NCBI RefSeq assembly: GCF_012939955.1
Contig: NZ_SPMY01000002.1
Location: forward strand, 1 to 64,000
DNA: 64,000 nucleotides
Direction of reading: 5' to 3'
From: Candidatus Accumulibacter phosphatis
GTDB taxonomy: Bacteria > Pseudomonadota > Gammaproteobacteria > Burkholderiales > Rhodocyclaceae
Shown piece after piece: positions 29,090 to 29,242 of this stretch (position 1 is its first letter; every line of letters begins with the position of its first letter). The position numbers and the translations under genes were made by a program. Below the pieces are notes generated by a model that was not told where the DNA came from, did not search any database, and was given only the letters and a program-made list of their open reading frames with translations.

Positions 29090-29242
29090 TGGGAAAAAAC
29101 TTCTTGCCGGGAACTATCGCTGGTCAGTGCGCTCTTATCTGGCGGATGGCTTCGCCATCCCCCGCTTCACCTCCCTGAGCGGGTGCCTTATTCCTGTAAG
29201 GCATGTTGCCCCCGGCCCCCCCTTTGCCGGGGGCTTTTTTTT
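29090..29242 (+). ncRNA. Candidate small RNA with four hairpins and terminator
   Basis: Between hemB and engB, both on minus, the plus strand carries four consecutive stem-loops. They are GGATGGC/GCCATCC (29144-29160), CCCGCT/AGCGGG (29161-29183, loop with CCTCC), TGCCTTA/TAAGGCA (29184-29203, loop TTCCTG) and GCCCCCGG/CCGGGGGC (29208-29234), followed by eight T. The last is a canonical intrinsic terminator with no plus-strand gene upstream for over 1 kb, so it should end a separate transcript. The pyrimidine-rich loops could pair with Shine-Dalgarno sequences. The 5' end is approximate and no clear promoter was found. Confidence 0.6.
29208..29242 (+). terminator. Rho-independent terminator of candidate sRNA
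   Basis: Perfect 8-bp GC stem (29208-29215 with 29227-29234), 11-base loop, then T8. The polarity is plus strand only. Confidence 0.85.

Follow-up and report, generated by a model that had tools for sequence, protein, structure and literature searches.

Among small RNAs encoded beside engB (yihA) or named for the neighbouring hemB, the closest described relative of the RNA considered here is ncS04 of Burkholderia cenocepacia, a member of the anti-hemB family (Rfam RF02837) that is also called Burkholderia RNA 7. It is 105 nt long, with a start mapped by dRNA-seq and a 3′ end mapped by RACE, lies between BCAL0264 and BCAL0265 in the orientation <- -> <-, is recorded as co-purifying with Hfq, and is listed without significant change in expression across the seven conditions tabled (Table 2) (PMC5688073, PMC4603805). 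It is for this relative that a mapped transcript of the family is described; the anti-hemB RNA is also named in PMC3521395, and the passages of the open-library literature that name it (PMC5688073, PMC3521395, PMC4603805) state no function. The RNA ErsA of P. aeruginosa is described as lying in the polA-engB interval and as sigma-22-dependent (PMC8575079, PMC8395346), and sX13 of Xanthomonas, located downstream of polA, is reported to carry C-rich apical loops and to repress mRNAs with G-rich sites; the authors of the latter work raise the question of small RNAs being encoded at polA in other bacteria as well (PMC3771888). The open PMC literature, to which our search was confined (subscription papers lay outside its scope), yielded no paper on the promoter of the anti-hemB RNA or on its link with polA-engB RNAs; further literature drawn on comprises PMC11722255, PMC10987360, PMC12013268, PMC6515984, PMC5819304, and PMC3349714.

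The window, that is, the whole stretch of 64,000 nucleotides from Candidatus Accumulibacter phosphatis that was analysed, carries an anti-hemB RNA element on the plus strand of its engB-hemB interval, and this element is a small-RNA gene of the known family RF02837. The features of the locus are as follows.

28029-29057, minus strand: hemB, starting at 29057 (Pfam PF00490, ALAD, E 7.9e-139), divergent neighbour of the RNA
29110-29116, plus strand: GGAACTA, -35 element of the putative sigma-E-type promoter (motif score and pattern search)
29133-29137, plus strand: TCTTA, its -10 element, after a spacer of 16 (motif score and pattern search)
29142-29146, plus strand: predicted transcription start, 5-9 nt past the -10 element
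29139-29242, plus strand: small RNA anti-hemB including the 5′ hairpin, extent taken from covariance model R1 and the T-run
29144-29160, plus strand: hairpin 1, 7 bp with loop TTC, absent from the Rfam model
29158-29242, plus strand: stretch covered by RF02837
29161-29183, plus strand: hairpin 2, stem CCCGC/GCGGG, loop region with CACCTCCCTG, including the anti-Shine-Dalgarno sequence CCTCCCTG at 29170-29177
29184-29203, plus strand: hairpin 3 (from the fold)
29208-29234, plus strand: hairpin 4, 9 bp with a C-rich loop (from the fold), which forms an intrinsic terminator with the T8 run (terminator scan)
29235-29242, plus strand: T8 run closing the intrinsic terminator 29208-29242
29252-29965, minus strand: engB/yihA, stop at 29252 (Pfam PF01926, MMR_HSR1, E 1.1e-17), convergent neighbour of the RNA

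The family assignment rests on a match of 73 bits, against a cut-off (gathering score) of 49.5, which covers the full model (1-81) with an E-value of 3.4e-15, and on the position of the copy, between hemB and engB and on the opposite strand, as in the family. The earlier note, made from the letters of the sequence, had proposed an unannotated small RNA here; the small-RNA assignment was right, and the word "unannotated" gives way to a known family. Its account of the surroundings also stands, since both flanking genes are on the minus strand and the nearest plus-strand gene upstream, an acyltransferase gene ending at 28036, is more than 1 kb away; its four hairpins and T8 are present, with a final hairpin of 9 bp rather than 8. 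Neither the hemB nor the engB reading frame is overlapped by the RNA.

RF02837 scores above its cut-off in 53 of 61 relatives and, across the order, in 245 of 399 genomes. Because 3 of 14 well-known genomes used as a control search matched at E 0.001, none of them above the cut-off, weak matches are not trusted. A second, sub-threshold match in the same genome (contig C65, 35.5 bits) contains CACCTCCCTG and lacks the GCGGG stem, for which reason it is not counted as a copy. At this locus (L002; minus strand, about 1506 from the start of that strand) and at L059, ACCTCCCTG precedes two hairpins and a T-run; these are the two loci with the motif among six sub-threshold ones examined, and they may encode a further small RNA that shares the seed. 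One genome of the order (G270) gives six RF02837 matches at E 0.001 and four R1 matches, a possible expansion. The "MicA homolog" CT_532 of Bordetella pertussis, considered as the same RNA, was rejected, as it adjoins pyrD and its level is described as similar without RseA (PMC12235514). Two MAG records, L141 (titled Klebsiella pneumoniae) and L207 (titled Bordetella parapertussis), have HemB sequences that group with uncultured betaproteobacterial records, and their titles look wrong.

The predicted fold of the plus strand reaches -71.1 kcal/mol, compared with -55.1 +/- 3.8 in dinucleotide shuffles (z -4.2; none of 200 as low), while the minus strand gives z -2.7, with 1 of 200 shuffles as low. 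Conservation of the structure was evaluated in an alignment of 58 loci, which were what remained of 68 diverse loci after 10 had been removed by hand without a test, 20 of a wider set of 183 loci having been dropped beforehand for want of a clear terminator. Across these 58 loci, the four-helix structure pairs 91.7% of cells versus 83.2% in shuffles and contains 122 double-change cells versus 32.1, values that none of 500 shuffles reached for either measure, and pairing drops to 29-55% when the partners are shifted by 1-3 columns. Compensatory changes occur at 6 of 6 pairs in hairpin 1 (82% of its cells paired, 18% unpaired), at 3 of 4 in hairpin 3, and at 5 of 6 in hairpin 4, and helix 2 is nearly invariant; the hairpins that the earlier note expected to be conserved in relatives with the same neighbourhood are thus both conserved and covarying. 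Judged by this comparison, the 5′ hairpin is part of the RNA, although it lies outside the Rfam model, and it was included in our own covariance model, R1, built from the 58 rows. R1 matches the window at 29139-29240 with 94 bits, by construction, because the window copy is one of those rows.

Two C-rich loops stand out within this structure. In the loop of hairpin 2, CCTCCCTGAGC is exact in 50 of the 53 relatives found with the Rfam model and departs in 3, a figure quoted from these relatives only, since the 183 loci were themselves picked by the loop motif. The second conserved C-rich loop is that of the terminator, with CCCC in 41 of 58 rows. Two loops had been singled out in the earlier note as complementary to Shine-Dalgarno sequences; the C-rich loop of hairpin 2 keeps that role, and the other, TTCCTG, drops out, being present in 1 of 58 rows.

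Upstream of the RNA, and at a suitable distance from it, the window contains GGAACTA-N16-TCTTA (29110-29137). The RpoE (ECF02) consensus is GAACTT/TCTGA, which this motif resembles, and by sequence the promoter looks like one of the sigma-E (RpoE) type. The predicted start is supported by a relative, as in B. cenocepacia the 5′ end computed for ncS04 coincides with the base of the corresponding hairpin. On a scale with a maximum of 11, built on GGAACTT and TCTnA with a spacer of 16-17, 45 of the 53 above-cut-off relatives reach the pass mark of 9, versus 1.05 expected from dinucleotide shuffles; six of the eight below 9 are Accumulibacter genomes with TCCAT as the -10 element. In the set picked by the loop motif (183 loci, being those of 210 that passed motif, length, and duplicate filters; of the loci gathered before filtering, at least 119 came from the matches listed in a search with a longer motif), 120 reach 9 with a spacer of 15-18, versus 5.0 in base shuffles. 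The pattern is not enriched genome-wide: GGAACTN{16,17}TCTNA has 3 sites in the 5.04 Mb of the genome, one of them here, versus 13 for the reversed control, and 22 genomes contain 41 exact GGAACTTN{16,17}TCTNA sites versus 59 for the reversed control. The evidence therefore lies in the position of the motif before this RNA, whose promoter accounts for 13 of the 41 exact sites (12 of 30 sites read, and one by coordinates). Two of the 30 sites read precede rpoH-like frames, one of which (in G052) was confirmed by family search; the frames downstream of the other exact sites are of various kinds and for the most part not among the known sigma-E genes. Three further exact GGAACTT/TCTNA sites (L264, L265, and L266) precede frames that by eye resemble opgG, htpX, and dksA.

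The genome encodes an RpoE above cut-off, with RseC/MucC next to rpoE (behind it), as the strongest of five matches to the RpoE family model. At rpoE itself, the motif scores 9 or more in 1 of 21 loci, and in that one the start is improperly located; because the motif is mostly not found there, rpoH served as the yardstick instead. Bordetella SigE is reported to transcribe in vitro from both the E. coli rpoHP3 promoter and the Bordetella rpoH promoter (PMC3490749). A like motif precedes rpoH in 14 of the 19 loci in which the start was found (of 50 sampled; 36 loci were read by CIRCE, 5 without one), versus 0.68 in base shuffles, and the rpoH of the same genome (L324, contig C28) has CGAACTT-N16-TCTCA. 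Both here and in the relatives' loci, the sigma-E-type -10 element of rpoH overlaps a CIRCE operator (GCACTC-N9-GAGTGC); part of the motif conservation at rpoH therefore has another cause, and both RpoE and HrcA may control rpoH.

Within the order, neither the promoter nor the terminator loop is uniform. In Burkholderia and Comamonadaceae, other, sigma-70-like sequences precede the RNA and the second C-rich loop is absent; Paraburkholderia and Pandoraea often have a mixed form in which GAAACTT is combined with GTATATCATA. The class "other" comprises 63 of the 183 loci and the mixed class 15, and 19 of these 78 non-ECF loci score at least 9 of 12 for sigma-70, versus 4.6 in base shuffles (22 versus 12.1 over all 183 loci). 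The label sigma-70-like was given from inspection of the sequences by eye, the length of ncS04 (105 nt), and this modest score; in a B. cenocepacia record, that length places the 5′ end six nt past a TATGAT. Three loci in the class "other" (L149, L179, and L198) have promoter scores of 9-10, with GAAACTT as the -35 element. Mapped onto a HemB tree of 147 of the 183 loci, in which 54 of 144 inner branches are open, the ECF class takes 7 changes, versus 43.6 for shuffled labels; the starred branches force at least 3 of them, not all 7. Of 92 ECF-class loci, 90 have CCC in the apical terminator loop, versus 4 of 71 others, a count that leaves out the 20 of 183 loci with no clear terminator, and three of the four exceptions are L149, L179, and L198, with their near-ECF promoters. 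Because few branches carry the changes, the promoter and loop counts are not independent; a Fisher p-value, which takes no account of kinship, was set aside. If true, the promoter shift and the accompanying loss of the C-rich loop would show, in a form that can be traced, how a small RNA changes its regulon.

In a sample of 274 genomes from the class, RF02837 has matches at E 1e-5 in 88, of which 14 score above the cut-off, so that most such matches are below Rfam's own threshold. The best match per genome, with the present genome and G085 left out, gives 86 loci outside the order, of which 69 score at least 9 for the promoter (versus 1.35 expected from dinucleotide shuffles) and 76 have CCTCCC within the matched stretch. 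The fetched stretches contain engB in 55 of 86 cases, polA and/or engB in 70, and hemB in none of the 86. In 33 loci, polA lies upstream on the same strand and engB downstream on the opposite one; 33 others have one of the two genes, 4 have both in another arrangement, and 16 have neither, three of these 16 being short because of a contig end. R1 matched all 37 of the outside-order loci searched with it, at E 0.01. A phylum-wide scan with R1 found 11 of 299 genomes, all in the present order, and says nothing firm about other classes because it missed at least one RF02837-matched genome (G520). Tandem copies of the RNA, two to five and about 150-320 nt apart, were seen in L361, L359, L360, L362, L366, L367, and L368, with four in L361 and, when weak matches are counted, five in L368.

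From these comparisons, related RNAs appear to sit beside engB in many other Proteobacteria, and their position together with the like promoter suggests that the job of the family may be to curb protein synthesis in envelope stress. The locus and orientation polA-RNA-yihA/engB of the outside-order matches are also those of E. coli Spot 42. The earlier note had pointed to Spot 42 beside yihA; this parallel is borne out in so far as outside-order matches often lie between polA and engB, and it fails for Spot 42 itself, as R1 has no match in the E. coli spf stretch (L456) up to E 10. The locus is therefore shared, and homology to Spot 42 is not supported.

Probably, then, the RNA is sigma-E-driven and acts in trans by blocking ribosome-binding sites with its C-rich loops. 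The family, the four-stem architecture, the nearly invariant loop, and the upstream sigma-E-type promoter are established at the level of sequence comparison, whereas RpoE as the factor, action in trans, and repression would follow by analogy with ncS04, ErsA, and sX13. Upon envelope stress, RNA polymerase with RpoE would start at about 29142-29146 and stop at 29242, yielding a four-stem-loop RNA, about 100 nt long, that Hfq probably holds by the terminator tail; mainly CCUCCCUG of hairpin 2, along with the terminator loop, would base-pair to ribosome-binding sites rich in G, lowering the translation of the set of mRNAs concerned. Within the genome, CAGGGAGG before ATG is listed 20 times, versus 6 for the control (one site being the RNA's own complement and two the same place); the 19 sites read include acyl-CoA ligase-like and ssb-like frames, as judged by eye. 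AGGGAGGTG before a start occurs 7 times versus 9 for the control, and the target search in this genome yielded no clear set and no recognised outer-membrane gene.

Three other readings were weighed against this one. That the RNA acts in trans outside RpoE control, as a housekeeping or metabolic regulator, is unlikely: it would accord with the sigma-70-like sequences of Burkholderia and Comamonadaceae, including the TATGAT before the computed ncS04 end and the sigma-70 scores of the 78 non-ECF loci, and with the unchanged level of ncS04 in seven conditions, which also counts against the sigma-E reading, though it comes from B. cenocepacia, where the promoter is sigma-70-like; however, the upstream motif is of ECF type in the window and in most other lineages, and a scan of 28400-29900 in the window found no sigma-70 site. 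If the promoter is of ECF type, a sigma factor other than RpoE might still read it, and the genome's other four matches to the RpoE family model, all of them weaker, would supply candidates. This is quite unlikely, however, given the resemblance of the motif to the RpoE consensus, its recurrence at rpoH, and the reading of that group's promoters by Bordetella SigE (PMC3490749).

The name anti-hemB invites a different idea, namely that the RNA acts in cis as an antisense to a read-through mRNA of engB and hemB. These genes do share a strand, with the RNA between them on the opposite one, and in 160 of the 183 loci hemB lies upstream, at most 2.5 kb away and on the other strand from the RNA. Nevertheless, the RNA overlaps neither reading frame, persists in the 86 stretches outside the order that have no hemB, and keeps a nearly invariant loop while its other parts vary, all of which makes this idea very unlikely. 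As a description of function, the name is misleading, because the RNA overlaps neither frame and is found without hemB outside the order. The preferred reading remains the sigma-E-driven repressor acting in trans, and its promoter, if truly of the sigma-E type, would give the Betaproteobacteria an equivalent of the small RNAs that respond to envelope stress in enteric bacteria and Pseudomonas.

Compared with known systems, the window copy shares with anti-hemB RF02837/ncS04 its sequence, structure, terminator, hemB-engB locus, and orientation. It differs in having a putative sigma-E-type promoter and a C-rich terminator loop, whereas in Burkholderia anti-hemB the promoter is sigma-70-like and that loop is missing, and the Rfam model omits the 5′ hairpin seen in the window. 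ErsA likewise lies beside engB and is described as controlled by an RpoE-like ECF factor, sigma-22, and as acting in trans with Hfq; unlike the window RNA, it is placed between polA and engB and given as 132 nt with three stem-loops. Among the 86 outside-order loci, 33 have this ErsA-type order polA-RNA-engB, 70 have at least one of the two genes, and 69 have a sigma-E-type promoter by motif, whereas the window copy has hemB in place of polA. The sX13 model (RF02232) scores 19.4 bits against the window, below its cut-off of 50, and sX13 is said to act without Hfq, unlike the co-purification recorded for ncS04; the present RNA nevertheless bears on the question of its authors about small RNAs at the polA locus of other bacteria. 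The RF02278 double-hairpin RNAs (ncS27) and Bordetella S17, described as having C/U-rich stretches complementary to ribosome-binding sites, lie at another locus, and RF02278 scores 20.5 bits against the window (cut-off 50). Taking these likenesses together, we give about even chances to the view that anti-hemB, ErsA, and perhaps sX13 represent one old RNA tied to engB that owes its transcription to the envelope-stress sigma factor and works by way of C-rich loops, and that in Burkholderia and Comamonadaceae exchanged its promoter for a sigma-70 one and lost the second C-rich loop.
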